A DNA stretch of 64,000 bases from Undaria pinnatifida (lineage: Eukaryota; Sar; Phaeophyceae; Laminariales; Alariaceae). The position numbers and the translations under genes are program-made. The notes beneath the pieces were generated by a model. It saw nothing but the letters and a program-made list of their open reading frames with translations, made no database searches and was not told the DNA's origin. The stretch covers positions 11,382,120 to 11,446,119 of the forward strand of contig JABAKD010000002.1 of the NCBI GenBank assembly GCA_012845835.1, read 5' to 3'. Of this stretch, positions 1-57,775 are shown in pieces (the stretch's first letter is position 1; each line of letters begins with the position of its first letter).

Positions 1-204
1 TTAGTATTTCAACGATGTAGAGAAGGCTACTGCTGAAACGTATTTTGCCTGAGTGACGCCCGCCGCTTCCTTAGCCTCGTTTTTGAGTGGTGTCGTGCCG
101 AAGTCGGCCCTTGCGGGATCGGGATCTATCACCAAGCGGCGGAATTCGTCGTAGCTTACTTGGCCGTCTCCATCGATGTCGACCATCGAGATCATCATAT
201 CTAC
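1..204 (-). CDS. C2/EF-hand gene, EF-hand exon (second loop), reaches window edge
   Basis: The acceptor is CTACAG just above position 204 and the exon starts in phase 0. It encodes VDMMISMVDIDGDGQVSYDE followed by FRRLV, a canonical 12-residue EF-hand loop with Asp at loop positions 1, 3 and 5, Gln at 7, Ser at 9 and Glu at 12. It follows the EF-hand exon at 1,083-1,215 in phase 0. The frame stays open to a TAA at positions 1-3. A GC-type donor about 40-45 bases from the left edge is also possible, so the true end is unclear. Decayed copies of this acceptor and exon start lie upstream between about 400 and 945. Confidence 0.8.
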   Translation of the reverse strand, partial: VDMMISMVDIDGDGQVSYDEFRRLVIDPDPARADFGTTPLKNEAKEAAGVTQAKYVSAVAFSTSLKY

Positions 205-3200: not shown

Positions 3201-6200
3201 GTCCAGGTCGAAAATATTGTCCTCACCTTGAGGTTCTCGCGGAGGGAGTCGTCGAAGCTGTCAACTCCCGGTTGGTACTGTGGGTACGCCACACCGACGG
3301 GCCCCTCGAAACTAAACACGCAATGGATTTCTCCAGCCGGTTTAGGAGGGCCCGGCCCGGAGGAAGCAGTGAGCTGCACCCAAGTGTCCATCGTACCTGC
3401 GTGCATGTGGCGTGGCCAGACAGAGAAGGTTTACGTCGAAGAGTGCAGGGTTTAACCGTTTTAGGGCTGCACAAATTATCCTATACTAATTACAAGTAGT
3501 TTTCTCCAAAGACGTGGGTGGTGTTCGAAAGAGTTAATCCATATACTGCTGTCAAATAAGCCTCCACGTTACGTCGTTTGAGCCTGCGTGCATGTGGCGT
3601 GGTCAGACCAAAAACAAAATGCGTTGCCAGGAGTTAGTATTACAAATACTTGATAATCGGCGGGGCCTTTTTTCCGAAGACACGCAACAAAAAGAGAATA
3701 CGACATCACCCTCCTCAAAAGGTTCGAATGAAAAAAACTAACCCGGAGCGTTGTGATCATAGGATGAATTAAGAAAACACCTTTTTTTCTGTAGTTGCGA
3801 TCACAGGGTGATTTTAAGGAAATGTTTTTAATATTTGTATCAACTTGGTTTTAGAGCACCACCCCCCCAGTCGAACGAAAACGAAACGTCAACAACATTT
3901 TGCTCTTGTCTGCTGTCGTCTTTTCTCCTGATCGTGTACTGTTTCTAGATGTTAACTAAAAGAGAGGGCGCTTTAAAAGGTGCGCGGAAAATGAAGATCC
4001 AATCGATGTTAGAGGTCGACAGACTTCCCTAGGCAGCACGGCCGCACGAAATTGTCACCAGGCGCAGTTCGTCTTCCCGAGAGGATGGCAATATTCATGC
4101 ACCAAGCCCGTTTGCCGGCGGCGTGTCCACCTATATTTCGACGGTACGTTCATTTCAGGACCGTTCCTTACGAACACCAAAAAATCTCAGGAATCGTGAC
4201 AAAAAAAAACGTTGCATTTTGGCGAAACGTGATATTTGGAATCCGGACTTCAAGTGGTGTTGACATTTTCCACAAAAAATGATGTCAAGATTCCTGACAA
4301 AAAAAAAAGTTTTTTTTTTTTTTGAAACGTGACCACCCAGAATTTCAAAATGTCTGAAATCGTGACTTTTTGTCAGCATTCGTGTTTCTTTTGCGTTCGT
4401 TAGGACGACGATTGTTATTGTCATTTTCCACCCACCCATATCATTTCGAGGATCGACTCGGAGAAAGTATGAGGACCGCTTGGTATTAATAATAATGTAA
4501 CAAGAGTGCTTACACGTATGCCCATAGTGGTATCAGGTGGACGGTAACTACCCCCCCCGGTCGACGCACCAACGAACCTCCTTTCTCGCCGTAATCCATC
4601 CACTACTACAATGAACGTCTTTATATCACCCTGTGAACCTGGGCACTAGCTAGCACCACTGAGGGGAGTCGCCGACTTATATCCTTCATAGGGACATAAA
4701 AAAACCGTAACACGCGCGATCGGAGCATGACACACATCTTGCAAATATGAGGTTCGACTAAATGCTCCACCTCACAGCGGTTGTGCATTTTTACTTTTTT
4801 TTGAATGAAAAAATACACCCTACACTACTTCCATGGTAATATCAAGTACTTTGTCCGAAAAACGCGTGTGAAGCTAGTTCTACAGGGGGTAACCTTTCGT
4901 CGAAGCATAACGGTATGCTAATGGCGCTGAAGATGTTTTCTCATGGATGGTCACACAGTAAAGATGAGACAGAGTGGGGAAATACGAGCTCACCCCGCTT
5001 GAAAACTGGTAGGAGGCTACACTGCGCGTTTCCGATGAGCTGGTCGGTTTCCATCATGTCGTGGTTGAAGCACTCCAGCCAGATCGTGTACTGATCCACG
5101 ATATCCATTTCCATCGTCTTAGCGAAATGGCACAGAGAAGGTGGGTCACAAAAAAAATATGTCAGAAGACGGCAGTTTTGGGCACGAACAGGGGATGAAA
5201 AAATGTATGAATTTGGGGCAGGAGGGCTACACTTTCATTTCTACTGATCGACGACCCGCAACGCTTTCCGTGGTTCTGGATGGTGTTGTGAAACATAAAA
5301 CATCATCGTACAGTATACCAATCAAAATCAAAATAGATTTTGTCTACTAACCGACCTTGTCCTTTTCCATCGTGTGGACATGGTGCAGACGGAAGGACGC
5401 GGTTCAGAAGATAGTGATCAGAAACAGGATACGCAAAACGTATCATAAGTATATGGGGCAGGCCCGCTATGCTTTAAGTGCTCCCAGACGGTGTTGTGGA
5501 ATGTATCATCGTGAAAAATATCAATCAAAATCCACCTTAGGTGTGTACGGATCCACAATGGTCATTCCCATCGTCTCGACACTGGTACAGATGGTGGGTC
5601 ACAAACAGGATCAAACAAGCGTTCGCACCTGGGGCTGGAGCTTCAAGGCGGTGTTGTGAAGTATAAACGTATTGTCGCGAAACATAAACACGTTGTCGTA
5701 AATCGTATCGATCGAGTAAAATAACACACAGCATACGAGGTATGTGATCCAGTTCCCGTAAGTTCTTGTCTCCAAAAGAACGTTGTTTGTCGATTAAAAA
5801 AACAATTTTTGAAGGAAGCCATTTTCATCCCCCCTCTACACCCCCTGCATCGTCAGATGGACAACGGTACAGCGGTTCCTAGGTCGGCTCTAGGGGCTGA
5901 AATACGGCCTATGCATGTACCGGGGAAGCCTCGATTTCATTTATTTGGGGATTCTGGCTTCAAAGACCCCCGTCGGTTGGACGAACAGCCCCCGCACACT
6001 CAGACGGGGGGGCACTAGCAGCCTAAATTTTAGCGCGCGAGCGTCGCCTGCGTGCAAACTCCTGTAGTATACAAACCACCTACGCCATAACGGGATGATG
6101 ACCTTCACTGGCGTACGTATATTTCATTGGTATGCGCGCGTTGTCTCCTTCCCCAACGCTTTTTTTTTACAATCTAACGAGGTAGGTCTACTGTCTTTGG

Positions 6201-9200: not shown

Positions 9201-12200
9201 CCGCCCAATGGGCTGTTCCGCACCTTTGTCCGGCACAACGGGTTGCTAGGCACCTTCGTACGACGCAAAACGAGTTAGTATATACGACTGCTTCTACGAT
9301 AGCCTCCCCCTAAAACCAGCGATATCCGTTAACGAACGCTTCATGGCTGCTCGACACGAGGAAGGATGCTATCCAAACGATAGCTTCACCTATTTTCTTG
9401 TTTGCAACAAACTATCGAACGATGGCGTCGGGGTTGCAAACGGCACCGTAATTCAGGAGATACGCCCGGGCGCTGGTTTCAAAGCCGGCGATTTCGCCAA
9501 AGAAATGTTGGAGGGGCTGCCGTAGAACGACTCATACCTTTTTACGGCGCAACGGGATATCGTGTACCTTCGGTTGGTGGAGTGGGGTGCCCATGGCCTG
9601 AAGGACGCTGATCGTTGTCGATCCCAGGTTGGGGTCGGTTCCTAGCTCTTCACTTCGAACTCTGATAAAGACCGGGGATCGTCAGAACGTTGATAAGAGA
9701 GTGGCTGGTACTGCCGGGAACTGTTCGTGATCGGTTGCATTGCACAGACACAAGGGTTGCCAGTCGCGATAGGCTGTCACGCGACCGGTCATTTTAGACG
9801 CTATCCCATGGCCTGAATGACGCCGACCGCTGTCGACGCCAGGCCGGCGTCGGTTTTTAGCTCTTCACTTCAACCTCTGGAGACAAGAGAGCGGGTATCG
9901 CCAGAACACGATCGGTTGCATAGGCACATGAATTTCCGTAAACGATGACCTGTTACGCGGGCAGTCACCCAAGGCGCTACTTCCAGACAATGTGGAAGTC
10001 GTTAGTGAGCAAAAATTCGATGAAAATAAACGAGCGTAAAAACTAAAAAGTAGGAATGCTCAATCCCATGCGAGATGAAAATGAAGGCATCCACCAGGGG
10101 GAAGAAGGGGAAACACCTGTGACCACGGCTTGCCCAGACGGTCGCTCGAGGTAAAACCTCTTACGGGTTGAGCTGGAGAGTAAAAGTGATGGTTGAAAAA
10201 AAAAGCGTAGAACCACAACTGAAACTTTCGGAGAGCGGTACGTGATGTGAGGGACCCTCGTGAAGGTTCACACTTAAACGGAATACTCACACATCGGTCA
10301 GGTTAAATCCCCGCTCATGATAAATATTTGTCATGGAGGGCAACTAGACCTCTGGCAGCTATGATCTGCATGATCTATGTATCATGTTGCCGTGTGGAAG
10401 CGGTACGATCGCCATGATCTAGCACATATTTCCTGGGCTGCATCTGTATTGCATAGTTCTATTTTTAAACAAAAATATCGTATCGACAGATGTAGGATGT
10501 AGATGTGGTATAGGTCGTGATCTGTCTTATGCGTTGAACTTTTTCATGCAAGAAATCAGCGATCGAGAGATGTAGTGCAAGAACACGTATCGACACTGCT
10601 GCAGCAACGCTGTGCTCGGGCTTGCTTGAGTCTTAACTGTAGATGAAGGTCGACTTGTTTTCGAGTCTTCCTGCAAACGAACGTCGACTCGTTTTGCGTC
10701 TCACTGTACTTACTGCAGATGGAGGTCGTTGGTCCAGTTCTCCTTGTCGATCCACATGACGATATCTTCCTCCCTGAAAAACGGTGTGCTTCCCCCACCC
10801 GTCACGACGCGGCTGCGCTTTTGGTACCTGAAGATCACGATCACACAAGAGTGGACAAGGACCACACAAAATTCATGGGGTGACATACAAGATGAATGAT
10901 AGCTATACAGACCCTTTTACATGTTTTTTCGGTGAAACGTTGGTTAGTATATGCCTGGTAGTCGACGAGCACAAAAAGCTGAAAAGTGGGAATGTTGAAC
11001 CCTATGCGAGATAAAAAGGGAGGCATTTACCGGAGGGGAGAAGGGAAGACGCCCGTGACCATGACCTTGTCCAGAAGGTCGTTGAGCGTAAAATCTCGTA
11101 CGAATTGAGCTGGAGAGTCAAATTGATGACAAAACAAAAATAAAAGAACAAGTTATTCGTAAGGGGGATTACTTTATTGTTACTTTGGGATCAGGCGTTC
11201 AGGTCTAATTGGTACGTGGTCGTATCTTCCATGTCCGAAGTCTTTGCATTCTGGATTTTCCTTTATGTGCGGATGGTATGATTGAAACAAGCTCTACCAT
11301 GCCTTTCCGTCGAAAATGAAAATTCAAGAATATCGTGAAGTAGTATGAATGAATCAAACTTCACCACCCCCCATATATATGCGTCATTGTCAGATGACAA
11401 ACCTTCATAATTACAGCTATATAGACTAGCTTACAGTTGCCTTATGTTTGTCGTAGAATACGTGACGTCACGCTTCCGATTAGGCGGTGCGGATCTACGG
11501 AGAATGCACAGACTGTGCTGGTGCAATCTCGAGCACATCGCCTCAGTTCCATACTACTAATAATAGTATTATTATTCTATTTGTCGCCTGACAAAAGGTG
11601 TAACGCTTGTTCCAATGTCACTATCCACATCCAAAAGAGGAAATCCGGAATCCAACGACGTAATACATGGAAGATGTTACCAGTCGGATCTGAGGTACTG
11701 TTGCATACTCTGCGCTACCTGTCCTTTCTGTGCAACGGCTTAGGACATAGAAGATGTTAGCAATTGGGCCGAACGCGCTGCTTCATACTCTACGCTCCAT
11801 ATCCTTTCAGTGTGATGCTTGCGCTACGAGCTATTAAAAATATAACAACCAGAGCTAATCACGGGTCAAAAATCCGACCGGTTGGTCGGGTCAGGAGGTG
11901 TTCGAAATGCCACGGGTCGGGTCACAAGATTTTTGGCTATCGTGTATCTGGTCGGCTCACGCTGACCAGATCCGACGCTCGAGAAGCAACCGGACCCATG
12001 AAAAGGCCTGCTAATAATAGAGATGAATGATATATCGTGAAACGAGGAGGAGGAGGAAGGACGCAAGCTACCCAGCACCAGCTTTGTGATCCCATTCGGG
12101 GCGATTTCTACCATTTGATGCCGTCGGCAAGACTCGTCACCGCTTCGGTGGCAGCTCCTCTCCACCAAGGCTATTCTGCTCTTCTCTCTAACCCGTAGAG

Positions 12201-15200
12201 AGGCAAGGTCGCGCTCTGTCTTTTGCGGGGGGTGGTGTTTTTTTAATGCACCAGTATGCAAGCGCGTGTAATTTTATTTTTATTTATTTTGAGCTTTCTT
12301 AGGCAAGTATAATACCAGTAAGGCGTGTAAAAACCGGATACCTCTCTGCCTTCGAAATCAGAGAGAAGTTTCCTTGAGTTCGTTGCCATCGCCTTGGAGC
12401 CGTGCTGGCTCTAAGGGGGCACTGGAGCGGCGCGTCTAGCACATAGCAGGTAAATACCGTGACTGCCGTGCTGGCGCTATGGAGGTACAGGGACGGTCAA
12501 TCTAGAACCTAGCAGGTAACTACCGCGACTGCCGTGCTGGCGCTATGGAGGTACAGGAGCGGTTCATCTAGAACCAAGGAGGTGCCACCGTGACTGGCAC
12601 AGAGACATCATAATACGTACCAGGTCATTTGACTTGCTCCTGCACGACAACATAACGTTGGCGCCAGCGACCCAGGATGGTGGAGTCACTGCAGGATACA
12701 ATTCGACGCGAGTCGACGGGGGAAGAAAATATTGAATTGTTCTCGCGCTAAAAATGAAGGCACGTACCGCAGTGGGGAGGGGGAAGGAGCGCCCGCTATT
12801 TGACCCCGGATTGAGTTACTACCGGGAGGGAGCGCGAGAGTAGTGCGAGGATAATAAATGGGGGGAAGAAAAAACTTGAAAAAAAAACACGCCCAGTTTC
12901 CGATCCAATTACGCTCCCCGAAGCACTACTGCAGCGAATACAACCCAGATTTCTCCAGCATCGTTCTTTACGATGGAATAAGTTCTTGACGAGCAAACGT
13001 GCACCGGGCATGTTCCTTGTTACACCTGGGGTCTAGCTCTCCAAGTGATGGGTTTTACCGGTCCCGTTTCGCGAATGGCTCGCAAACTCATGCCGGGCTC
13101 TCCAGAAAAGTGGGTTTCTTGAAGTTTGGTGTAGTAACAGCCCCTGGATAGAGGTGCCTTCAGAAGCACATGTTGGAAACCTCCCATATTTTGCGTTGTG
13201 TTACAAGGGGATGGTAGCGATCCGTGCCCTACCTCAAGTTTGTACGATACGAGTAGAGATTCTTGGGTGCGGTTCTCGTATTTGCTCGTTTTGCGATTGT
13301 CGGTAGGTTCGCATTCAAATATGCGGGTAACACACATCTGTTGAGGTGTTGAAGGGCATTAGCTCGTTTGACTACGGGTAAAAGGTTAACCATCTACCTA
13401 CCCTAACTAAGGCTTACAACAGTCTTCCCCACTGGGTCCGCCCGCGTATGTATCCGACCGACCTGCTATGTCGCCGTTCCAGGTGGGCTATTGTTATAAG
13501 ACTTAGTTTGGGTGATAGGCGATTGGTTAACGTTTTGGCAGAAGACAAACGGAGTGATCTGCTATCCCACCGTTCCAGTGAAGGGGAGTGTTATCAGGCT
13601 TAGTTTTGGGTAGTAGGTGATCGGCTAGACTAGCTTTTAACCAGCAGTGAAACAGGCAACCAGGCCTCCTATTACCTTAACACACCCCTGCTATCTCCTT
13701 ACATTTCGCCAAGGGTGGCGACGACGTAAGGGTTGGGCGTGACCGCGGGGTCCGCTGCTCCAAGCCCTCTCCCCTCGAATAGAGTTATCACGAACATGCC
13801 GAGAAGAGCGGGATCAAACCAAATTTCTACCTGCGATAACAAATATCACGTCAACCACAAGCGCCGCGTTAGTATTAGTAACACGAATCAGCGCGCAGAT
13901 ACACCCGAAAGAACGGGATCAAGCCAATTTTTGTGCGATATTAACACGTCACCCACGCGCATCGCGTTATTGATAGCACTGAACCAGCGCGAACACGATA
14001 ACTGGATCAAACGAAAACTTTTGCCTGCAACGACACGTCGTAACCACACGTGTGCGTTGTGCTATTAATAGTAACATATAAATTATACGCCAGGCATGAG
14101 GGGGGGGCAGACCGCCTTCACTGGGCATCAACATTGACGTGGCAAAACAAATGATGCTCGTTGCCCGTCTAAGACTTTTGCTGCTGTCCCAGGTTCGCAA
14201 CGTTTACGCTTAACATGAAGCTCGTGTCTCGATCGATGAAATAAAGCATTGCAACAGAGTTTTCACGAAAGGTGTTGCAATAAATTTGTCACCTGGACTC
14301 TCATTCTGTCCTTGATACGTCCAGACGGCGCCTCGAGCGGAATCCATTCTGGGCTGGGAACCGCATCGGGGTGCATAAACCTGGCAGCCGAAAAACAAAA
14401 AACACACAGCACCAAAGAAAAATGCGCACGATGCTTTAGTGCATCAAGGGTCCATAGTGCTAGCACAACCTTCGTGCTCTTTTCCTTGCTCGAGCGGAAT
14501 GCATTCCGCGGTAGGAACTGCATCGGGTTGTTTACATCTAATGGCCGACAAATAAAAAACAGCAGCACCAAAAACACAAACACATGGGTACATCGGTGCG
14601 TCACGGGTTGTTCATAGTAGCAGCACAAGCATGATGTCATTTACTTTACTCGAGAGGGATCCATCCTGAAGTAGCAACCGCACTGGGGTGAAAAAACCTA
14701 ACTAGTAACAAACATTAAAAAAATGCAGCACCAAAAACATACATGGGTACATCAGTGCGCGTCAATGTTATCAATATTTGTCATAAAAATATTCTGACAA
14801 CGTCAGCTGTGACTTCGACAAATTTAGGGTCGATACTCATCTTTGCAAGCCGCGCAATACATCGTTTGTACGTTTGCAGTCATTTGCCTTCTGACAAGGT
14901 TCACTGCACCCTTTCATTAGGAACGCAAAAGCTGAAATATTGCAGAGTTGGTTTTTCATAGTGGAAGCACAATCGTCGTGCTTCTTCCCGTACTCGGGGG
15001 GGATCCATTGTGCGGAAGGGACTGCATCGGAACGCACACACCTTAACGGCCAACAAAAACGAAAGCAACATCAAAAGCAACACATGGGTACCATTAAGCC
15101 GTGTGGCATGTGTATGTGGGAGCGCAAACATTGTTATTAATATATTTGCCAGAATGCGCCTCAACGTCGATCATCCAATAAAAAACAGAAACAAGACGAA

Positions 15201-18200: not shown

Positions 18201-18891
18201 CTTCTCCGTCGTCTTCCTCATTTGCTATCACAACACCCTGCATGTGCAACACAAAATGTGTATGGAGGCTTTGTTCACAATGTCCCACAGAGACAGGAAC
18301 GGGGCATCAGACACTACTTTGCAGCCGATGGTTTCCCTACGCCGACGCCTAACCCTAACCCAGACCCGAACCCAAACCTACGTTCAACGGGTCAAGTTCG
18401 TATCATCCCATATCCCACTCATTTCGATTGAACCTACCTCTTCCTCCTCCTTCGCCACAATGGCCTCCTCTTCCACCGGGGGTGGGGACGGTCTCGCTTT
18501 GGGCTGGGCAAGAGAGGGCGGGGCTCTCCCCGGAGGTGCTCCTGGAGGGGGTCGGCGCTTGCCTGGGTCTCCTGGTGGCAAAGCCTTTGCTTTATCGGTC
18601 TTGACCGTGGAGTCCTGGTCCGCACGGACAAGAAACGCATGTATATTTATGACAGGCCACGCTCAGAAGGGGCGCAGACATGAGCATGACAGGTCGTTGT
18701 CACCTAGCGTTTCCTCGTACGCTAGGCATCATTTTGGGACTTGAGAAAGGGAAAGAGACGGCAAAGAAAAGGACGGCTGCAGCGTCTCCTGGTGGCAACA
18801 CCTTTGGTTTTCAGTTGTTACCTGGAGTGACGTGGCCGGGGAACCCTTCGCGGATAAGGAGCGCAGACACAACCTTTGATTTGTTGTTGTT

Positions 18892-18969
<78 letters not shown>

Positions 18970-35900: not shown

Positions 35901-38900
35901 TGTGCCTGATATGATAGTGCTGCTGCAGACGGGGCCTATTCGTAGCGGTCTGTCAAATGTGTACCTGGAATGCAGACCAAGGGGGCCCCACTCTCCGTTA
36001 TTTTTGTCTGTCCGCTTTTTTCCGTTTTTCTGCGTGGTAGCCAGCCACAAAGAAACATCTCCCCCCCGCCCCCCCTCGAGCGCAAACGCTGGTGTTACTA
36101 GTGAAGACCTTAGAGCCGTCACAACGTACTGTATCCAAACCGTATCCATGTACGACCCTATACCGTACCCATACACGACTTTCTGCCCTGACGCCGTACG
36201 TTCCTCCCGCGTTCCTCCCAGGCAGCAACCCGCCTTTCAGAATCACGTCTAAACCTTAACCTTAGCTTCACGTCCAAGCCGTAAACCTAGGAAGCTCTGC
36301 CTTTTTTTTCCCGTCTGTCCACCATTCCCGTTTTTCTGCGTGGTAGCCAGCCATGGAAGAGCACCTGTCTCGCCCCGCGCCCAAACGATGGAAACTGATC
36401 GTGCTACTCATGATTGTCCAGGAGCTATCACTTGGTATCCTTAACCTGTGCAAGCTCTGCAGTACTCTTGTCCTTCCGCGTTTTACGGTTCTGGGCGTTG
36501 TAACCAGCCACAGGAAAAGCATCTGCCTCGCCCGTCGTCCCCCCTTTGAGTTGTGGAACCGCTGTTGCTCATGACGCAAGGCCCTACACCACACTGTGTT
36601 ATATCGCACACTACCTTGTGCCCCCACGCCATACAACATTCCCCCACCCTCCCATGCAGCAAGCCGCCTTTCAATTCTATGCCTATACCTGACTCCCTTT
36701 AGGACTGCAGTAATGTCCCAACTCTGATCCCAAGTGGTTTGTCCCAATAACCGGATATCATTTCTGGAGGGGACCCCGCAACGAGGTGCTGCTCATTTTA
36801 TTCCGACATGTCACTCAATCCAATAGCAACGGTGCTCGATGAGCGATCACTTGAGGCGCGCACATCAGCAGCAGTTTTTCGAAACAATGACACCCCGCCC
36901 CCTCTTCTCGACTCTGGCTGTCGCGTGGAGTGCCGTTGTTTGGGTAAAAACAAACGCAGGCCCAACGTCCAACATTGGCCTCCGGGAAACCCATCGACGT
37001 TCGGCGCGTGTTCCAACAACAACGCTAACGCCAACGTCATCACTAACGCTAGCTTATGCTAACGCTAATGCCAACGCTAACGCTAATGCCAACACTAACG
37101 CTAATGCCAACGCTAACGCTAACGCAACGCTCACGCTAACACCAACGCTAACACTATTAATAGTACTAACGCTACCGCCAACGCTAACGCCAACGCTATC
37201 GAAAACGCTAACGCCAACGCTAACACCGACGCTACCGACAACGCCACCACCAACGCTACCGCCAACGCCACCGCTAACACTACCGCCAACGCTACTGCAA
37301 GCGCTACCGCAAACGCTAGCTCGGACGAGGACTATCGTCGCGATTGACTGACCGATATCGCTCTACCGCCGCCCGAAACTGCCGTCTGCTGGCACTTTTA
37401 TGGTTTGACTCAAATAATCGCAGGCTCAACATTCGTCATTGGCTTTCGGCAAACCCGTCTTCGTCCAGCGCGTGTCCGGACGCTAACGCTAAGGCTAACA
37501 CTAGCTCGGACAAGGACTGTCACCGCGATCTATTGGGTCATAGCTCTCTACGCCGCCCAAAACTTCCGTCTCATGGTATATTTGTTGTTTGGGCGGGGGA
37601 AACGCAGGCTCCACACCCGACGTTGGTCTCGGGGAAGTGCATCGTCGTCTAGTTCCAACGCGTTTCCCGACATCAGCGACAATGCTAACGCAAACGCTGA
37701 TGCTGACGCCAACACTAACGATACCGCCAACACTAGTGCGAGCTCAGACAATGTCTGATGCTGTAACTCTAACCCTGACCCTAACCCTGGGGACACACGA
37801 AGGCAGGCTCAACATCCGACGTTGGCCTCCTTGATTCCGTCGTCGTCCAGTGCGTGTCCTGACAGCAACGCTAACGCTATCGCTAATTCTATCGCCAACA
37901 GAAACGCTAATGCTAACGCTAACGATAACGCTATCCATAAACGAAAAAGCTGACGCCAACGCTCGCGCCAATGCTAACTCTAACGCTAACGCTAGCGCTA
38001 ACGCTAGCGCTAACACTAGCGCTAACGCTAGCGCTAACGCTAGCGCTAACACTAGCGCTAACACTAACGCCAACCCTAACGCCAACAGTAACGGTGACGC
38101 TAGACGCTAACTCTGACGCCAATGCTAGCGCTAACGCTAGCTTTATCACCAAAACAAACGCTAGCACTAAAGACAACGCTAATGCTAACGCCAACAGTAA
38201 CGCTAACGCTACCGCTACCGTTACCACTATCGTTAACGCTGACGCTAACGCTAACGTTAGCTCGGATGAAGACTGCCACCGCGATCGATTGACCGATAAC
38301 CCTCTGATGCCGCCCAAAGCTGCAGCATCCTAACATATTTGATGCTCTACCCCAAACCTTGGCTCTAACCTCGACCCCGTGTCTAACCCTGACCCTGTTC
38401 CTTGGGGCAAACAAACCGCAGGCTGAACATCCGACATTGGCCTCCTGGAAACCCGTCGTCGTCTAGCGTCACGTGTCCCGACAGCATCGCGAAAGCTGAC
38501 GCTAACGCTGGCGCTAGCTCGGACAAGGACGAGGATTGTCCCCGTGATAAGTGGATCGAAAGCCCTCAGCATGAAAAGATACCACCCGTGGCTGCACCAC
38601 CACGACCGGTGATACTGGCGGGAAGCTTGAGCCAGTTACCCCGGTGTATGCGCTTGGGCGGTGCGGTAATTTTCACGGACCTGTCTTGTCCTGATGCGTG
38701 GAGGTGAGAGGACGGCATAATCAGGGCTTACGGTAATAGTAACAGCGGTGAGTGGAATTTACCGTTTATTAGACAAAACCATTCATGGCTCAACTACTGA
38801 TATTTGTAATACTGACGGGGAGCCTCAGCCAGCTACCCCAGTTTATACAAGCACTTGGGCAGTGCGGTGATTTCATGGACCTGTCTTGTCTCAAGCATGG

Positions 38901-41900
38901 AGGTAATACAAAAAGGCTCTCGTAGTTGTTTTTTATTACGTTTTTGCGTTATTTTTACACCGTTAGAACCAGGGCTTTTCACGGGTCATGACCCGACCCG
39001 CGGGTTGGGTCAAGGGATTTTCAAAATTTCGCGGGTAGGGTCGGGTCGGGTCAAAACATTTTAAAACATCACGGGTCGGGTCGGGTCGGGTCAAGAGATT
39101 TCAAAATCTCGCGGGTCGGGTCGGGTCGGGTCAAAAGGCTTCGAAATCTCGCGGGTCGGGTCGGGTTCGTCAAGAGGTTTCAAAATCTCGCGGGTCGGGT
39201 CGGGTCGGGTCAAGAGGTTTTCACAATCTCGCGGGTCGAGTCGGGTCATGACCCGCGAGATACGGGTCACTCGCGGGTCAAGCCACCATGACCCGCGAGT
39301 TGTTTTCGGCTGACCCGCGGGTCAAACCCGCGGATCTGGCCCGCGGATCCGCCATTTTCAAACTTATTACAGCTGAGGGCCGTTGCCGTGCAGGCGCCCC
39401 GCGGATCCGTAAATACAATACAAAGCTTTCCCCTTGCTGCCTCTCTCGTGCCGATGCTCCGATCATATGTCATCACAGCATGCAGAACAATCACCAGGCA
39501 GTACCTCTAGCTACTCGTACCAAGGCATACAGCAGTATGACGCGAATCCCGTACCGGCTGAAGCCGGAACAGTAAAAATATTTCGGTCATAGCAGTACGA
39601 AATGTGACCAAACGTAAAAAGGCAAGGAAGAGCAGTCGTCGTCGAAGCTGCAGCAGCAGCACTGGCAGCATCAAGCACCAGCAGCAGATCCCAGGTTCTC
39701 GCGGATCGCAGCCCCTGCTGACAGACCCACCGCCCCAGTTGCGGGCTTGGTGCCGGAGGCGGCTCAGCTAGGCTGCTTGCCGGGGCTGGAGACTGCACAG
39801 ATAGAAGGTAGATACAGCAGTAAGTAGTAGTAGCTAGCTCGAGAATTATCGTACCAGTACGACATGTGACCAAAGGTGAAAAAGCAAGAAGAGCAGTCGT
39901 CGTCGAAGCAGCAGCAGCAGCAGCAGCACCTGGCAGCAGCAAGCACAAGCAGCAGACAACGCATCCTCGCGGATCGCAGCTCATGCTGACAGATGCACCG
40001 CCCCAGTTGTGGGCTTGCTGCCGAAGGTGGCTCAGCTAGGCTGCTTGCCGGGGCCGGTGACTGCACTTATAACTAGCTCGCTCGTCGAGTCGCTCGTCGG
40101 GTCGACCCGGCGGTCTATCGGGACGGGCATGCCCATGCATGTGGGTTGCGGTTTCTTTCCCATTTTTCGCGCGCACACCACATGACTTAATCATCAGCTG
40201 CCAACAATGCCGGTAAAAAAAACAGAGAACATGACATACTGGGGAAAGTACGAGGGACCAAGGACCAACCAACCGACCGAGTTACACATGCTGTGACCCG
40301 TGACTTTTGGACCTTGACCCGTGAGAAATGTCACGGGTCAAGTCGACCTGACCCTTATGAAACCCGCATCTCGCGGGTCACCCGGATTGTGGAGGGTCGG
40401 CTCGGGTCGGGTTAGGAGGATTTCAACATCTCGCGGGTCGGGTCGGGTCGGGTCAGGAGGTTTTCAAAACCTCGCGGGTCGGGTCGGGTTGGGTCAAGAC
40501 GTCTCGAAATTCTCGCGGGTCGGGTCGGGTCGGGTCGGGTCGGGTTGGGTCGGGTCGGGTCGGGTCAAGACGTCTCGAAATTCTTGCGGGTCGGGTCGGG
40601 TTGGGTCACGACGTTTCGAAATTATCACGGATCGGGTCGGGTCTGACCCGACTCGACCCGACCCGGCCCGCGAGATTTGACCCGACCCGTGAAAAGCCCT
40701 GGTTAGAATGGCCCTAGCCGTTGCTGTGGCGAGCGGGGGTTTCGAAACATGAAGGCAGTGCTTTTGAAGCGAACCACACATTGCATCGCTCACCACTATT
40801 TTCTGGCTCTCGTGTACTTTTTCCCGACCCTCGTGTGCGCGTGTCTGTCAACAACAGCCCTCGTGCGCGTGTTTATCGTCATATTAATAAGGCCTCTCGC
40901 CAAATGGGCGTCCAGGAGCAACGAAGTTGCGATAGCGAGGCCAGAACCATTGAAGTAGAAGTAGTGAGTTTGTTTTTGCATCTTGCGTTTGTTTGGACCG
41001 TCAGAAAAGACCCTACGAGTAGCGTTGTGTTGTGGCGAGAAGGGTTTTCGAAACATGAAGGCGGTACTTACGAAGCAAACCACGCAGTACAACGCGCACC
41101 ACTATTCTCCGGGCCTTCCGCAATTTGTCGGCTTGTTCATGGACACGACAACAGGTGGCTTGCCGATTGGGCGTCTAGGAGCAGGGAGGGATCTTCAGAC
41201 CATGCCGCCAACGACTTCGTGGTGGTTCACTCTCAGTTAAGAGCGGATGGCCGCTGCGACGTGGGTGATTGCCTGGAAAAGCTGTATTCAATGGGAATCA
41301 GGAGTCTTATGGTGGAGGTAAGTTATTACGCCAACACTTTCGGGGGGAGCTGTGAGTCGGCGGCATCAAACGACTTGTATCTAGTTGGTAGGTGCCGTTA
41401 GCCAACTAACCGAGTTTAGTCGGCAAGTCGGCTGGCGAAGTCGACTGATGGCCAGCTGATATGCCCACTTAAGCCGGGCGACCGAAACGAGTGAAATCAG
41501 CTCCCTCCGGCCTTCCGGCGGAGGGAGCCGCGCGTAAAACAGAAAAGTGCACCCAGCAATAAACGATCCTTTCTACAAGTATGGAAACGCAATAAGTCGG
41601 ACAGTGGGCACCTCTCGGAAAAGACTAACTATTGGTCCGACTAATATTGAGTTGGTGACTTGAGTTGTGCCAACTCACGGCTATACTTGTGAGACATGAG
41701 AGGGAAATAATGCCGAAAATATATGACGATTACAACATTGAGCACACGAAACACAATCGGGGCTGCCAGAGGAAAAGGAGTGTCCGGGGAGCGGAACGAG
41801 CTATCCGAAACGCGCAGAATGATGGCTTTCACACTTTCATTAGTACGCGTTCTTCCTACAAAGGCTGATACCACCGCACTTGTCTCTTTTAGGTGTTCTT

Positions 41901-44900: not shown

Positions 44901-47900
44901 TCCACGCTTAGATTCTGTAGGGTTTGTGGATTCCGGGTAAGGGTATTGGGGTCTTGCAGAACTTCCAGAAGTTTCGGGGATGGGTATGGAAGTGTTACAG
45001 AACTTCCAGAAGTTCCGGGTATTTTGGCACAGGCATACATAACTCACAGAAGTTCCGGGCGAGCACAATACATGCTGCACCCGTACCCCGGGTATTGTGG
45101 CACGGGTCTACAGAACTCACAGAAGCTCCGGGTACGGGTATGAAGTCTTACAGAGCTTCCAGAAGTTCCGGTTACGGGTATGAAAGTTGTACAAAACTTC
45201 CAGAACTTCCGGGTATTGTGGCACGGGCGTACAGACCTTCCAGAAGTTCCGGGCACGTATAAACATGCTGTACCCGTACCTCGGGTCTTTGTGGCACCGG
45301 CGTACAGGACTTCCAGAAGTGCCGGGTACGGGTATGGGTGTCTCGCAGAAGTTACAGAAGTTCTATGTATGGTAATACCCGAGGTAAATACCCCGGGTAT
45401 GGTTTTGTGTGTACCCTACAGACAGAACGAAAATAGAAAGTTCGGGTACGGGTGTGAATGTCGTACAGAACTCACAGACGTTCCGGGTACGGGTAGGGTT
45501 GTCTAGAACTCACAGAAGTCCCGGGTACGGGTATTTCCCAGGTAAATACCCGCCTCAAAAAGGACGAGAAAAAAACAAATTGACTGGCAAAAAAATCACA
45601 ATAGTCAACGCATTTCCAACTACTGCGATTGGCATACTGCATACACTGATGCACTCATAGGAAATAACACATACTGGGAAGCAACATATACGTACCATTG
45701 TAGCCCATTTTTGTTGTTCGTGCTTTCTTTCACCAACCCCGTTTGTGTTGGTGCTGTGTTCCACGAATTGCACAATAAGAACCTTTCCAACTTCCCAAGA
45801 AACGGCTTTTGCGGTTACAGTATTTCCTCCCAAATTACCGTACTCTGTTGCTCAATAGCAAATTTTTGCAACAAGACTAATGCTACTGCATTTCAAATAC
45901 CAGGTATAACTCTATTATTACTATGGCAAGCCCGAAAATCCTTCCAACCGAGAACAAAAACAAGGAAAAGATACGATATCAGTGCCGATCACAGCAACTA
46001 CTGTACTAATTTCAAGTATCTAATGAAAAATACTTCGAGCATTATTCACTATAAAAAGACTTACAGTACTACAAGCATATGATACTACTATAAATAATCA
46101 CAATTATATCATACTAAAAATAAACTCCCAAGTATACGAAAAGGCCCACCGGGTTCCAACTATTATACGAAGAGGCCCACCGACTTCCATCTCTTTGAGT
46201 TTACAAGAACAAATGCAAACGTTACTTCGAATCACACCAATAAAACTGCCGAAAAAAACACGCGAATACTAATCTACAGCAGTAGTAGTATAGCAGCAGC
46301 AAGAACAGCAGTTTCGCTGGTGAGCGAACTAAACACGAACAGGTGCTACTGCTATGAGCTAGTATCAATAGTAGCCCCCAGTTTCCCCCGCCCCCCAGCC
46401 TTCTTCAGCCCTCGTTCAAGCCCATGTCGACCAGAAACCTTGCAAGTCCACAGGTCCAGCCCGTAGTGGATGATGGCGAGCGTGGCCTTCTTGATCTCCT
46501 ACATGTGACCGACAACCACCTGCGAGAACGGCAGTTGTCGAAAAATAAAGACGGTGTTTATACCTTTGCTTGTATGTATCGTTACTGTACTACAGTATAC
46601 TGTATGATAATATTATATTATACTTCGTAAAAATTAAAGTACACTCCAGCTGTGAGATCGAATATTTTGTCGAAACTCATATTTGCAAGCTGTGTGTGAT
46701 ACTCCGATTATATATATATGATTAGTAGTGGATAGCGAAACGCATTATCGGCTCTACAAAAAAATGTTATTGCCCATTCGTTGCCACCCACCCCGTGCTG
46801 TTTTCGCGCGATTTCCGCTATTATGATCTATTAACAAGGTCCTTGCAAGGTCTCTTCATAAAAAATACACGCCGAAAACGTTTATTACCAAAATTGACTT
46901 TGTAGATGTGTTGTAGATACGAGTGTAGACTATACGCATACATACAAGCAGTATCATATTTCTGTGGCCACAGAAGAGCTTGTATCTCTATAAATAGGGT
47001 GAAAGATAAGAAAGATTAGAATCGGCACGGACACCGGGTGTGCTGGATTTTGATGGCTAAAAAGAAATTTACGGATTTAATATGTACCAGGTATATTATT
47101 GGTTGCAAAGAGACAAGAAAGAGAGAGGAGAGGAGATACCCCAAAAATTTGTACGTAGGATACAATCACATAACCAAAAGTGCCGCCACTGAACCATGAA
47201 CCACTGACCTTCTTTGTAGCGACGTACGTCTCCATAAGGGGGTGCTTGATGCGCCGAGAAGAAAGCGGCGGAAAGTGTGTCGTGTTGGACGTGAGCATCC
47301 CCACCAGCTCCTGCCACGTCGAACCAGACGAGAAGAAGCTGAACTGCAAAAAGTTCTCGACCACCATCTTAGCAGCAATAAGCTCGCGAAATCTAAAAAA
47401 GAATACACAAAACACAGAGCAGCAGCGAGTGGAAGGTAGGTGTTGGGGCCAGCTAATATGAGCAACCAACGTGCGCGTGAGACCAGATACCAATTCCCAC
47501 CCTTCCCTTCACTACCCAGACCAGGGCAGCGCGACAAAAAGGCAAAACGATATCGCAGTCCTACACAGTTTGCAAAACATACCGGTGGGCTGAGATTTCT
47601 CGACGAATTTGCAACACCCGATAGTTTTCAAACTTTTTTTTCACTTGGTTTTGGTATACCCCCCCTTATCTGGGTTTTAAAAATGGATGGCGAGCTGTCG
47701 ATATTTTATTGTTTTACCTGGTATATTTCAGTACGCCCTTGTCCAGACCCGTCTGATATGTGTTCGAGAACAAGAGTTTGCAATTTGACATACATACACC
47801 TGTTCGTTCCAGCACAGGAGGAGTTCTTGCTCGCCTCGAAGCTCCGCTGGTTGTTCCCTTTCGCTTGCTTTTGTTTTCCAGCCTTCACAGCGCCAGCCAC

Positions 47901-50322
47901 TCTGCTCAGCCTGTGTTTGCTCTCGTGATGGTTGTTCACGTTGCTGCGGTCGTCCTTGTCAGGGAACCGTCTTGTTTTGCGGTACGCGGGGTCCGCCATG
48001 CAGAAGTACTTGTGTTTATTTGTAGTCCTCCTCAGCTAACGGGACGTAGACTCCTAGCGAGTACATAAACGACCGCTCGCGGGAACCCTCTCTCCTGTAG
48101 CCGTCCGGCACCTTGAAGTCATGGACGGCTTGGACGATGTCCGCGGGCAATACACACACCTCTCTTTTCATGTCGTATACGAGCGCCGGTGTAATTACAA
48201 GCACGGCTTTATTGTCATCCACCTCGATTACCTCGAGCGGGCTCCCGGCTGCTGGTGGAGTACACGAACTGCCGCCATCTCTGTTAGGCGGGGATCCTTG
48301 CGGATCCGCCGCGTCCGTATTCCCTCTCCGCGGGTGCACAGATGCAATTGACGAATGTGCGTGCTTGTGTTCTTTGGTTGTGTGTCTGAGCTGCGGGTTG
48401 TTGTGAACGATGTGTTCTTACTTGTCCCCAGAAGACAAGAACGAGTACACCCATCATACCAGTGCGAATATGCTTGCGTACAGGCTGGTTCAAGTTAAAG
48501 GCGGAAATTGTTCCCCCCGCCAATGTCCCTCGCAATATCTAGTCAACGGGCGAATATTTGGTATCATACCGACCCCAATGACAAGTGTAAGTCTTAGAGG
48601 GTGACATGGACACTTTTTTTATACCGCCCTCGGGTCGTCTCTAGAAGCGAAACTCGTACAGACCGTTGACAGGCCTTCAATTTTTTCAGTGATTTTCAGT
48701 TTTTTCCCTAACGGAGGCGAAAACCACGATTGCGCCGCATTTTGCACGAACAGGTTGGAGGTACTCCAAGGCATGTCTGTATCATTTTTCGCGCATAAAA
48801 ACGAGGATCTGACCTTCGTATGTTCGATATCAAGCAGAACTTGACGAAAAACTGTATGCTGCACTAAAACCAAGTAATTTCAAGGAAATAACGTATTCTA
48901 CTCATTTTTACGCGCAAAGGTCCCAATGTCCACGCCGTTTCTGAGAGATAGACCCTGACTTTTAGCGCACTTGTTCCATATACCCATCCGGAGGCCCGAC
49001 CTCCGGGAGGGGGGGGGGGGGAATCGCCGAAAATGTTTGGTCAAAGGTGGTCCAAATTTTTCCAAAAAATCTTGACTGACGAAAAACCAGGCAAGAAAAG
49101 AAGAAGAAAAAGAAACCCCCGACAGGTGAGGTCTTTGCCAATGCACGTACAAGACGTGTGCAAAAATTCACGGTCTGAATAAAAAAAACGGCGTGGACAT
49201 TCGCCGGGGAATACTTGTACAGTTCCGTCGTTTGACGTGAACCAGCCTGTAGGTAGATCTGCCCTGCACCACGAGCCAGGGTTGTCGGGAGTATCAACGG
49301 TCCATCGGGAGGACTGTCTCTGGGTTCGAGGGCGGTCGAAATCACCGTCGTTTTGCCGCAACAGTATTTTTAACTCTAATTAAAAGATAAATTACCATCG
49401 GTTTGTCGCCAAAACCTGGTTGCAGTCCTCAAGGGGGTCATCTACACCTTTTTTCACCGCTGCTAAATAATTCCAGACTAATTCCAGGCAATTTACCGCC
49501 CCAAAAAATGTGTGCACGTATAAAGGGGTTAAACGGGAGGCTGAATGGAGTGGTGAATCGTGCATCTACTGCTGCACCTAGTAGCTTTTGCTTTCCCCCA
49601 TACGTCAGCGTAGTAGTGTCATTGACTACGGTATCATAACAGCCCGGTGGCGTATCAGGTTATCCTCGAGCCTGGTATAGGTCAGTTTCGTGAGTTCGAT
49701 CCCCGCCGAGTGCATACTCGTATAAATTCGTTGGGACTTTTTCTTGTGCACAAATTGACTTGCGGAAAGCACGAGAGCGTGAGTTAGCAACACTCGATGA
49801 AATATCGACGAGCAGTGGGATTGCTGAACCCTATGCGCGATAAAAATGAAGGCAAGAACCGGGGGGGAGAAGGGACGACACCTGTGACCACAGCTTGTCC
49901 AGAAGCTGGAAAGTACAAGTGTGAGAAAAAACAGCCTCGCTGCTTGATTCTCGATCCAGTCTGTTTTCGATTTGTTTGTTTTGTGGGACCGTCCCCTCGG
50001 CAGGTTTTCCACCGCCACTGTTGGACGTGGGATACGTTTATGTGGGGCGTACGCAGGGTTGGGTTTGAGGGTAAGGTTAAATATTAATGAAAATGTATGT
50101 GAATCTGTTTTGTCGAAGGTATGGTAGGTTACCCTCAAGTCCTGGCATCGTTTGCAGTAGCAGCATCGCTTCTCGATCTAGTCTGTTTTTGATCTTGTTT
50201 TTTGCGTTCAAACCGCCCCCTCTGCAGGTTTCCCGCTGCCACTGTTGGACGTGGGATACGTTCGGTTGGGGCAGGATCTGGTCGTGGTTGGCGCGCCAGC
50301 CCGCGGCGAGGAAGCCTTGTGA
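29610..50322 (+). CDS. RIB7: Gene model: RIB7, 2,5-diamino-6-ribosylamino-pyrimidinone 5'-phosphate reductase (six exons)
   Basis: Six exons (29,610-29,960; 33,052-33,155; 38,422-38,703; 41,179-41,317; 43,351-43,546; 50,228-50,322) join in phase at all five introns to give 388 codons and a TGA. The product matches the RibD C-terminal reductase family: RPFVTLTYAQSIDGSIS (residues about 95-111), GPESRTMTHGLRSIHDAILV (about 122), GAGTVRQDNPRLN (about 142), PRPVIL (about 212), IRSLMVEGGATVISSFL (about 286-302), DRVVVTIAPVFLQGYNVL (about 325-342) and the final LLDVGYVRLGQDLVVVGAP. By family knowledge the enzyme uses NADPH to reduce the ribose of the early pyrimidine intermediate in riboflavin synthesis. 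It is longer than fungal Rib7 because of an N-terminal extension of about 90 residues and a Ser/Asn/Ala/Asp-rich insert in exon 3. Introns are 2.0-6.7 kb. Confidence 0.87.
30105..30305. repeat. ACCTGGTACCAGGT palindrome cluster
   Basis: Many copies of TACCTGGTA / TACCAGGTAC in both orientations. Similar short clusters occur at 62,355-62,415 and 63,245-63,335. Non-coding, RIB7 intron 1. Confidence 0.7.
30515..30890. repeat. Inverted pair of CTTGCAAAGATGAG-family repeats
   Basis: A plus-orientation copy (30,515-30,590) faces a longer minus-orientation copy (30,735-30,885). The second has the full set of family words, including CTCATTAAGGATATAGGTCG and GTAGCTATCAGGGTCAACAG. The pair could fold in the RIB7 intron 1 transcript. 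Confidence 0.6.
31180..31530. repeat. Decayed tandem copies of the RIB7 exon 2 junction
   Basis: Two units of about 155 bp contain copies of the acceptor and exon 2 start: AGTGTTCTCAGCGGGCCCGA then AAGCTGCACGAT (about 31,300) and GTGTCCCTCAGCGGACCGGC (about 31,448), compared with GTGTTCCTGAGCGGGCCGGA at the true exon. Each is flanked by GCCGCAACGCCGCAACCTC. That flanking word recurs at about 32,795. Confidence 0.65.
31560..31705 (+). repeat. Dispersed SINE-like repeat (family A), copy
   Basis: GATGATGAACCCTATGCGTG, GACACCTGTGACCACGGTTG, GTCCAGGAGGTCGTCAAGAG and TTGAGCTGGAAAGTAAAAG in family order. RIB7 intron 1. Confidence 0.7.
33052..33155 (+). CDS. RIB7: RIB7 exon 2
   Basis: Acceptor TTTGTCCCAG, donor CCAAG|GTTAGC (104 bp, phase 0 in, phase 2 out). 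It encodes VFLSGPESRTMTHGLRSIHD then AILVGAGTVRQDNP, which contains the strongly conserved MTHxLRSxHDAILVGxGT segment of the family's nucleotide-binding core. Confidence 0.9.
34246..34440. repeat. Tandem GGTCCCGCTTTTGTTA units
   Basis: GGTCCCGCTTTTTTTGTTAA and GGTCCCGCTTTTGTTAGCCC, each with a following CGCCCGA, form two degenerate units in RIB7 intron 2. No coding evidence. Confidence 0.45.
34479..34556. repeat. TATTGCATATTGTATTATTT tandem repeat
   Basis: Three units of about 26 bp. Confidence 0.85.
34840..35000 (-). repeat. Dispersed SINE-like repeat (family A), reverse copy
   Basis: TCTCCAGCTCATGTCGTGTC, CCTTGTTGACAAGGTCATGG, GTGCCTTCATTTTAATCGCG and TTTCAGCATTCCCACTG are the reverse complement of family A words. 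RIB7 intron 2. Confidence 0.65.
35395..36740. repeat. Tandem blocks in RIB7 intron 2
   Basis: Two units of about 175 bp at 35,397-35,690 (CGAAACACGCCTACC, GGCCCACNAATAA, GGGCTCACTGAATAAG) and three units of about 290 bp at 35,890-36,720 (TTTTCTGCGTGGTAGCCAGC, CAGGCAGCAACCCGCCTTTC). No coding frame with family similarity is seen. Confidence 0.5.
36945..38421. repeat. Four decayed copies of RIB7 exon 3 with expanded GCTAAC arrays
   Basis: Copies of the acceptor and exon 3 start, CGCAG|GCTCAACATCCGAC-like, begin at 36,960, 37,424, 37,608 and 37,807. Each is followed by a TTGGCCTCC, CCGTCGTCGTCCAG, GCGTGTCC series, then GCTAACGCC hexamer runs (longest at 37,020-37,320 and 37,865-38,240), and three of them end with AGCTCGGAC(A/G)AGGACTG. 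The true exon has the same words with only GCTGACGCTAACGCTGGCGC. Copies lack the conserved PRPVIL region and are stopped (for example TAA near 37,059). Confidence 0.8.
38422..38703 (+). CDS. RIB7: RIB7 exon 3
   Basis: Acceptor AACCGCAG, donor GGAG|GTGAGA (282 bp, phase 2 in, phase 2 out). It begins RLNIRHWPPGNPSSSS, continues with a low-complexity SIAKADANAGASSDKDE insert, then reaches PRPVILAGSLSQLPRCMRLG and VIFTDLSCPDAW. The RLN and P-R-P-V-I-L segments are family landmarks. In the family the residue after VIL is usually Asp; here it is Ala-Gly, a difference worth checking. Confidence 0.82.
38800..38905. repeat. Decayed copy of the 3' half of RIB7 exon 3
   Basis: ATACTGACGGGGAGCCTCAG, CCAGCTACCCCAG and TTGGGCAGTGCGGTGATTTC, ATGGACCTGTCTTGTC repeat the exon's 38,609-38,703 end including a GGAG|GTAATA donor. 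A frame change makes it unfit as a simple substitute. Confidence 0.7.
39026..39260. repeat. CGGGTC array, left arm
   Basis: Six units of about 45-50 bp, each TC(G/A)CGGGTCGGGTCGGGTC then AAGAGATTTCAAAATC-like. Part of the MITE. Confidence 0.85.
40390..40660. repeat. CGGGTC array, right arm
   Basis: The same CGGGTC units with AAGACGTCTCGAAATTCTCG-like spacers, continuing in the same orientation as the left arm, followed by a short opposite-strand GACCCGACTCGACCCG stretch at the right end. Confidence 0.85.
40719..40935. repeat. Decayed copy of the RIB7 exon 4 acceptor region
   Basis: The block GGTTTCGAAACATGAAGGCA, GCACCACACAT-like, to CAAATGGGCGTCCAG|GAGCA matches 41,020-41,190, which holds the real acceptor GATTGGGCGTCTAG|GAGCA. 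The copy diverges just after the exon start. Confidence 0.7.
41179..41317 (+). CDS. RIB7: RIB7 exon 4
   Basis: Acceptor GCGTCTAG, donor GGAG|GTAAGT (139 bp, phase 2 in, phase 0 out). It encodes SREGSSDHAANDFVVVHSQL then RADGRCDVGDCLEKLYSM and GIRSLMVE. The D-G-R-x-D-V...L-x-x-x-G-I-R-S-L-M-V-E segment is highly typical. A second AG six bases downstream (41,185) is also in phase, so the start may vary by two residues. Confidence 0.85.
42130..42430. repeat. TATCGCCATTCGG minisatellite
   Basis: About 20 units of 12-14 bp (GGTATCGCCATTC with small changes). Long open frames across it only mirror the repeat. RIB7 intron 4. Confidence 0.9.
43351..43546 (+). CDS. RIB7: RIB7 exon 5
   Basis: Acceptor CTGCACAG, donor TCAG|GTGAGG (196 bp, phase 0 in, phase 1 out). 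It begins GGATVISSFL, directly completing MVE from exon 4 to the family signature MVEGGA. It then gives EQTVAGQLVDRVVVTIAPVF and LQGYNVLARK. These are the strand and loop that close the active-site face in the family. Confidence 0.9.
43565..43870. repeat. Tandem TAGTGCCGGT / GAACCCGCTA units
   Basis: Two to three units of about 115 bp with GTCCCT(C/A), AGTGCCGG(C/T)GA, CTG(A/G)AACCCGCTA and CTGC(A/C)G. Similar words occur again near 61,560-61,640. RIB7 intron 5. Confidence 0.55.
44115..44205 (-). repeat. Diverged copy of the 7,038/62,625 element
   Basis: GACACGCGGCATGTATGAAA, AAGTGGAAGTGTGGTGAGCC and TATTTTTCCCCACCCGCCGC, same order as at 7,075-7,145. Confidence 0.55.
44635..44830 (-). repeat. 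Dispersed SINE-like repeat (family A), reverse copy
   Basis: TTTCAAGCTCCATTCGTGGG, AGGTTTTCACCCTCAGCGGC and CGTTCCTTTTTATCGCGCAA are the reverse complement of family A, with a polypyrimidine expansion in the middle. Confidence 0.65.
44930..45545. repeat. AACTTCCAGAAGTTCCGGGT minisatellite
   Basis: About 14 units of 35-60 bp, each with (AACTTCC or AACTCAC)AGAAGTTCCGGG then TACGGGTATG or TATTGTGGCACGGG. The core AACTTCCAGAAGTT is near-palindromic. RIB7 intron 5. Confidence 0.9.
46439..46498 (-). CDS. hAT-like exon with D-L-W-T motif
   Basis: A 60-bp, phase 0/0 exon flanked by ATGTAG and GTTTCT. Its end, YGLDLWTCK, fits the 'T-x-D-x-W-T-S' strand of hAT transposases. It is separated from the preceding exon by an intron of about 710 bp. 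Confidence 0.45.
46635..46715 (-). repeat. Dispersed CTTGCAAAGATGAG-family repeat, reverse copy
   Basis: ACACTCCAGCTGTGAGATCG, AATATTTTGTCGAAACTCAT and TTTGCAAGCTGTGTGTGATA, nearly identical to 30,735-30,805. Confidence 0.65.
47209..47392 (-). CDS. hAT-like exon, helical N-terminal part
   Basis: 184-bp exon between TTTTTTAG and AAG|GTCAGT, phase 0 out. Encodes a Trp/Leu/Phe-rich segment ending in SSRRIKHPLMETYVATKK, which resembles the P-S-R-x-x-L/I...Y helix before the hAT catalytic core. Confidence 0.45.
48620..49361 (-). other. Unassigned minus-strand open segments above the hAT-like pieces
   Basis: Two stretches (48,619-48,873 and 49,150-49,361) have long open frames with protein-like composition, for example PWSTSNLFVQNAAQSWFS in the first and, in two overlapping frames, DLPTGWFTSNDGTVQVFPGE in the second. 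I cannot assign them. They may be 5' parts of the transposase or other TE debris. Confidence 0.2.
49630..49705 (+). other. tRNA-like box A/box B segment before a SINE-like copy
   Basis: AGCCCGGTGGCGTATCAGG and, 50 bases on, GAGTTCGATCCCCGCC resemble polymerase III A and B boxes. The family A repeat begins about 90 bp downstream, which would suit a tRNA-derived SINE head. Other copies lack this head, so the link is weak. It does not fold as a good tRNA by eye. Confidence 0.3.
49790..49925 (+). repeat. Dispersed SINE-like repeat (family A), copy
   Basis: GTGGGATTGCTGAACCCTAT, GCGCGATAAAAATGAAGGCA, GGGACGACACCTGTGACCAC and TTGTCCAGAAGCTGG. Lies just before the duplicated exon 6 region. Confidence 0.7.
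49938..50068 (+). pseudogene. Twin of RIB7 terminal exon (alternative or dead last exon)
   Basis: The sequence from the polypyrimidine tract through the exon is duplicated 224 bp upstream of the true exon 6. The copy has acceptor CTCGGCAG at 50,003 and, in the phase RIB7 needs, encodes FPPPLLDVGYVYVGRTQGWV then stops at TGA 50,066-50,068. It lacks the conserved LGQDLVVVGAP strand. If spliced it would give a reductase with a shortened, altered C-terminus. Confidence 0.6.
50228..50322 (+). CDS. RIB7: RIB7 exon 6 (terminal)
   Basis: Acceptor CCTCTGCAG, phase 1 in, TGA at 50,320-50,322. It encodes FPLPLLDVGYVRLGQDLVVV then GAPARGEEAL. L-x-D-V...L-G-x-D-x-V-V-x-G-x-P is the standard last strand of this reductase family. 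Confidence 0.88.
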
Positions 50323-53170: not shown

Positions 53171-53174
53171 AGTA

Positions 53175-56940: not shown

Positions 56941-56944
56941 CTGC

Positions 56945-56947
56945 TGT

Positions 56948-56997
<50 letters not shown>

Positions 56998-57742: not shown

Positions 57743-57775
<33 letters not shown>

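Follow-up and report, generated by a model that had tools for sequence, protein, structure and literature searches.

Decayed copies of exon edges in two genes of Undaria pinnatifida as probable remnants of small tandem duplications scattered through introns

Small tandem duplications were reportedly described in rice by Vaughn and Bennetzen in 2014. They also arise from break repair (Schimmel et al. 2021, PMC8355091), and the copies described here, found in a window that is the whole 64,000-nucleotide stretch of DNA analysed, resemble those of break repair in being direct, local and, in half of the young pairs, head to tail, but differ in that the window offsets mostly exceed 100 bp and the copies are mostly old. 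The arrangement that marks small tandem duplications, direct and close, was found both in the window (87 direct pairs against 10 inverted) and in 62 loci elsewhere in the genome (101 against 4). Tandem exon duplication (PMC9013439) likewise yields exon copies within the same gene, recovered by the same kind of search, whereas the window copies are mostly partial, carry one splice site and are dead. In that study, the exon bases for which the extended parent gene contains a homolog of at least 80% identity make up ~2% for human, 0.08% for fly and 0.06% for worm; by a method that differs from that one and spans a shorter range, exon bases with a local homolog at at least 80% identity amount to 170/2,668 (6.4%) in the window and 133/21,795 (0.6%) in 69 other loci. 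The window is rich in exon homologs, and the level at the other loci falls within the known range.

In brown algae, intragenic tandem exon duplication is known from the ROCO genes, which have used tandem LRR exons and exon shuffling (PMC11378527). The LRR exons of the ROCO genes are whole, 72 bp long, phase 2 and transcribed, whereas the window copies are partial and decaying. Intron gain by tandem genomic duplication (PMC4974935) also involves a within-gene tandem duplication that alters intron structure, in contrast to which the window introns lengthen with no new intron position shown. The original prediction held that the exon echoes were not a known feature class, a view that finds no support given that small tandem duplication and tandem exon duplication are already published; among the titles and abstract openings listed in a search covering part of the literature, none concerned decayed exon copies. 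The echoes are probably old small tandem duplications, the exon-touching share of those scattered through introns, a reading that replaces a supposed new exon-linked feature with a known mutational process.

Copies of exon edges in the window

Two genes lie in the window, and both the genes and their exons are real. In the C2 gene, on the minus strand, a single open frame runs through 12 exons, and EF-hands are encoded by two more; the gene model is out of frame where the C2 and EF-hand parts meet and therefore lacks either a small exon or a shifted edge at that point. RIB7, on the plus strand, carries RibD_C, with a rough exon join. Pfam matches were obtained for C2 (E 3e-20), EF-hand (E 4e-15) and RibD_C (E 1e-21). 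The exon edges at 21,066, 23,639 and 25,337 and that of RIB7 exon 6 are presumed. A search of the 511-Mb eukaryotic genome with the C2 protein yielded 13 matches, all within the C2 gene (12 exons and one echo).

Local copies of a splice site with part of its exon had been predicted beside at least 16 exons. Each claimed copy was aligned to the exon edge, and its score was set against those of 2,000 placements of that query at random positions over 4 kb distant; 22 of the 27 claimed copies outscored all 2,000, confirming that local copies of exon edges are real. The smallest possible p (0.0005) was reached by 23 of 28 rows, one row more than the claims because RIB7 exon 6 was scored both ways; both ends of the claimed ranges 10,560-10,660 and 36,960-37,807 were scored, making two claims each, and the copy at 15,365 was scored against the donor end of its exon (15,590) in place of 15,757. 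Copies were upheld in this test for 14 of the 16 exons but not for exon 10,714 or RIB7 exon 4. The claimed copies at 10,560 and 10,660 (exon 10,714), at 36,960 and 37,807 (RIB7 exon 3) and at 40,912 (RIB7 exon 4) failed against the 2,000 random placements; the RIB7 exons were located from translation, and misplacement could have lost the claims at 36,960, 37,807 and 40,912.

Exon j of the C2 gene (15585-15757, minus strand) is echoed on both sides. Its acceptor and 5' half recur at 15882-15988 (79% identical, AG changed to AC, one in-frame stop), a copy also recovered by the genome protein search (E 2e-4, two stops), and its 3' half and donor recur at 15371-15448 (80%, frameshifted, with 5- and 2-base gaps). 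This exon has a GC donor in the gene model; at 15580-15590 the GC donor stands in verified frame, and the decayed downstream copy shows a GT donor at the same place (15371-15380). Further copies on the minus strand comprise an acceptor with the 5' part of exon f (9538-9661) at 9805-9907 (80%, one in-frame stop), of exon m (17567-17744) at 18182-18247 (80%), with a second copy of the 5' part at 17886-17949 (73%), and of the presumed exon 25257-25337 at 25616-25698 (73%). Exon i (14293-14380) heads an array in which its acceptor and 5' part occur twice within 14489-14759 (at ~14489 and ~14649), followed by a third copy at 14957-15094. The acceptor and start of exon d (4994-5117) recur at 5543-5605 (76%), with a weaker copy near 5355, and the acceptor of exon c (3227-3396) recurs over 26 bases at 3583-3608 (96%). 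Copies of the edge of an EF-hand exon (1-204) and of its adjoining intron form an array at 345-967. A near-whole copy of the presumed exon 23639-23707, at 23431-23522 (78%), keeps the donor and has lost the acceptor AG, and the proline-rich exon has its edge (21066) copied at 21184-21278, in repetitive coding sequence that was kept outside the exon test.

On the plus strand, the 5' edge of RIB7 exon 2 (~33050-33150) is copied at 31295-31331 (87%, 1.75 kb distant). RIB7 exon 3, placed at 38600-38705 with no located acceptor, has a near-whole copy at 38778-38904 (74%; donor kept, acceptor not judgeable, 4 bases inserted and 2 deleted), and a pair at 49948-50048 and 50170-50272 (82%) lies near the presumed RIB7 exon 6. 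An intron-only head-to-tail duplication with an 80-bp unit (72%) is present at 11653-11812, where no exon is annotated.

In a self-comparison of the window from which low-complexity and short-period sequence had been excluded, 87 direct and 10 inverted local pairs were counted at 36 bits or above (88 and 10 with a fixed search space), while without filtering the hits within 1 kb numbered 133 direct and 6 inverted. Pair cores measured 26-146 bp, with offsets of 60-1,959 bp and identities of 63-97%. The original prediction had named a shuffled-sequence control, and the similarities survive it, as none of 10 order-1 Markov shuffles in 1-kb blocks contained a direct pair. Its proposal of a process that repeatedly duplicates short tracts and leaves the copies close by is likewise supported.

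Relation of the copies to exons

The 21 exon annotations were slid around the first 51 kb in 1,000 circular shifts, leaving out the proline-rich stretch at 19.9-21.3 kb and the sequence beyond 51 kb. Exon-touching pairs numbered 12 of 83, against 11.9 expected (sd 4.9, P 0.49). The distinct exons touched were 9 of 21 at 36 bits (6.5 expected, P 0.14) and 11 of 21 at 33 bits (7.0 expected, P 0.049), which makes the earlier wording of echoes beside nearly every exon too strong. Pairs covered 514/2,668 exon bases and 8,101/47,115 non-exon bases (17.2%) in the gene region; at 80% identity the cover was 170/2,668 and 1,885/47,115, a slight exon excess at high identity that a conserved partner predicts. 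With windows scored individually, a local copy at score 130 was found for 29.8% of 161 exon windows, 24.0% of 907 non-exon windows below 29 kb and 23.6% of 741 between 29 and 50 kb; at the highest cut (score 185), it was found for 16.1% of 161 exon windows versus 8.8% of 2,146 non-exon windows. Exon enrichment from the high-scoring windows was dropped as a candidate since the pair counts equal the shifted-annotation null. The freezing of exons can explain the excesses at score 185 and at 33 bits, and a weak true exon excess is possible.

Loci elsewhere in the genome were sampled around DEAD, ABC and kinase exons, a choice that biases the sample toward long, well-conserved exons. Of 78 fetched loci, 69 were kept after the removal of 9, and 7 of these 69 overlap other loci; loci L001-L004, which came from an arbitrary pattern, were kept out of the exon counts. 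The dropped loci (L035-L040, L055, L056 and L058) sit on contigs C45, C49 and C50, small contigs with long uninterrupted frames and duplications in 2.3% of windows, which look organellar or bacterial rather than nuclear. The 62 non-overlapping loci contained 101 direct and 4 inverted pairs, which touched 9 of 62 coding matches and covered 457/20,094 coding-match bases (2.3%) versus 9,903/186,000 flank bases (5.3%). Across all 69 loci there were 110 direct and 4 inverted pairs, with 10 coding matches touched and cover of 472/21,795 coding and 10,709/207,000 flank bases. The suggestion that the process is tied to exons is not borne out, as exon-touching pairs match the circular-shift expectation in the window and genomic coding matches are covered less than their flanks. 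Three kinesin genes carried copies in 28%, 2.6% (L084) and 26% of non-exon windows, and the duplication process is not uniform across genes; one kinesin exon has two copies (L083). As a post hoc observation, the offsets of exon-touching pairs in the window cluster at 186-215 bp (6/12, versus 7/71 other pairs), near nucleosome spacing.

Arrangement, decay and origin

Eight pairs qualified as young (at least 90% identity, >40 bp), seven in the fetched loci and one in the window. Four of these are exactly head to tail, and the other four are spaced (two in L030 from one three-copy family, one in L063 and one in the window at 57460-57606). Near a DEAD-box exon, L027 contains a perfect 71-bp head-to-tail duplication (2463-2605) that is 100% identical and apparently very young. 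Among the 87 window pairs, which are mostly old, 3 have a gap of 10 bp or less, overlapping copies having been filtered out beforehand. The outside flanks of the visible copies are at about random level in a 25-bp ungapped test; with anchored gapped extension, 34% of 65 pairs exceeded the null 95% point in residual flank similarity (P 7e-10); these pairs come partly from shared repeat families and so are not independent.

In 15 exon-echo alignments of 9 exons, identity was 429/521 (82%) at codon positions 1 and 2, 185/260 (71%) at position 3 and 299/399 (75%) in intron; position 3 and intron differ from positions 1 and 2 at P 0.0004 and 0.007, in alignments several of which share an exon. With one alignment per exon, identities at positions 1, 2 and 3 were 79%, 85% and 70%, and 77% in intron. 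In blast pairs, 579/732 bases were identical in the exon part and 193/266 in the intron part (P 0.03). The codon-position pattern runs in the direction expected of one changing branch versus two, and on this pattern of identity by codon position and intron, the copies therefore look neutral and the exons frozen. The copies are partial in 15 of 17 alignments, and the 15 framed copies include 8 with a stop or frame-breaking indel, 6 that are open over the aligned part and 1 too short. By eye from the alignments, ~14 of 18 copied splice sites retain AG or GT, and no selection against decoy splice sites was seen among them. The copies extend across splice junctions into intron and are therefore of DNA-level origin rather than from spliced RNA; a processed pseudo-exon was accordingly rejected as a candidate. 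An introner or other mobile element was also rejected in the genome search with the C2 protein, which gave no match at unrelated loci; since all 13 genome matches of the protein lie in its own gene, no exon-carrying mobile element was seen.

An assembly artefact or chance similarity is a conceivable source of the copies; chance is countered by the absence of pairs from the shuffles, and because the pairs are 63-97% identical, a divergence incompatible with collapsed or repeated reads, and the pattern recurs on many other contigs, an artefact is unlikely, so that artefact and chance together carry almost no weight. An exon-directed process, in which splice sites or exons set off duplication (through transcription-linked breaks at exon edges, for instance), would accord with the 14 of 16 claimed exons confirmed to have copies, with high-scoring windows about twice as frequent at exons and with the count of distinct exons reached at the 33-bit cut, but it is very unlikely given that pair counts equal the circular-shift null and that, in the 69 loci (some overlapping), exon windows with copies (4.3% of 920) were fewer than flank windows (8.2% of 2,320 and 8.9% of 4,429). 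It is also highly improbable that the copies arose by tandem exon duplication as used alternative or mutually exclusive exons held by selection. The 6 open copies and the retained AG or GT dinucleotides point that way, but most copies are partial, the two near-whole ones lack an acceptor in one case and are frameshifted in the other, 8 of 15 framed copies are disrupted or frame-broken and 1 is too short, and positions 1 and 2 changed freely, whereas coding copies would differ mainly at position 3. As a class, mutually exclusive exons were rejected both on structure, a whole exon with two splice sites not being found (the copy at 23431 has no acceptor AG), and on coding constraint, identity being 82% at positions 1 and 2 and 71% at position 3.

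Alternatively, template switching or end joining might have copied a short stretch from nearby and inserted it at a distance of 100-500 bp. Such spaced templated insertion would account for the spacer in most old pairs, for the near-random sequence just outside them and for the 4 of 8 young pairs that are spaced, two of these from the single three-copy family in L030. Template switching is expected to yield both orientations. Inverted copies are rare (10 versus 87 and 4 versus 101), 4 of 8 young pairs are exactly adjacent and residual flank similarity persists in the gapped test, all of which count against spaced insertion and leave it a rather doubtful general explanation. The flank and young-pair data are better matched by tandem duplication with later decay than by spaced insertion, and spaced templated insertion may have produced a portion of the copies.

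In tandem duplication with later decay, a tract between tens and several hundred bases long would be copied head to tail beside itself; this could happen at any point of a long intron and would at times span an exon edge, and we infer that the old spaced pairs also began head to tail. Where the duplication ends inside an exon, the working exon would stay intact and a partial exon with one splice site would be added, which splicing could ignore; this would explain why such copies are tolerated. The added copy would then decay as neutral DNA. Intron-intron copies would decay on both sides and exon-intron copies mainly on one, and for that reason exon copies would be recognisable for longer. For the repair route, the presumed candidates are replication slippage and the filling in and joining of staggered breaks or paired nicks. 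Exons would thus mislead the eye, with the frozen side of each exon copy giving a long memory of old duplications, and dead exon copies could be used as a clock for intronic tandem duplication.

Intron length and other repeats

The echoes had also been proposed as a main source of intron growth. They do add length, with 8,101 of 47,115 non-exon bases in visible pairs, but a main source is not borne out; the visible added copy would be about half of these paired bases, roughly 9%. In the stretch beyond both genes (51001-64000), where open frames were read and local duplications are few, 144/13,000 bases (1.1%) lay in pairs, as did 168/5,070 (3.3%) on the other side, adjoining the C2 gene; this presumed non-genic sample comes from a single locus, in two pieces. 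The segment 58200-61200 was not found a second time in the genome. With open-frame length as a proxy, flanks of short-frame exons had copies in 16.5% of windows (30 loci) and flanks of long open frames in 5.1% (29 loci; P 0.01), in the 59 of 69 loci, overlapping ones included, that were usable (the other 10 had too few flank windows).

These comparisons suggest an intron excess over non-genic DNA, to which the kinesin gene L084 runs counter. Introns may be older DNA, sheltered by exons from large deletions. The larger proposition, that the long introns of this lineage were built largely by repeated small tandem duplication and that the duplications were gained several times faster or kept longer there than in neighbouring non-genic DNA, is regarded as tentative and unlikely in full. 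If the intron excess is true, the process would be tied to transcription or to the shelter that exons give from large deletions, and it would offer a concrete, transposon-free route of intron growth.

Finally, two other kinds of repeat were observed in the window. A minisatellite built of CGGGT units and a recurring spacer is dispersed, in both orientations, at 39001-39247, 40394-40643 and 16226-16350. A repeat of ~196 bp that resembles a short mobile element has inverted copies, 95% identical, at 30719-30914 and 57998-58193, and further pieces of it occur at 46611-46708 and 50886-50953.
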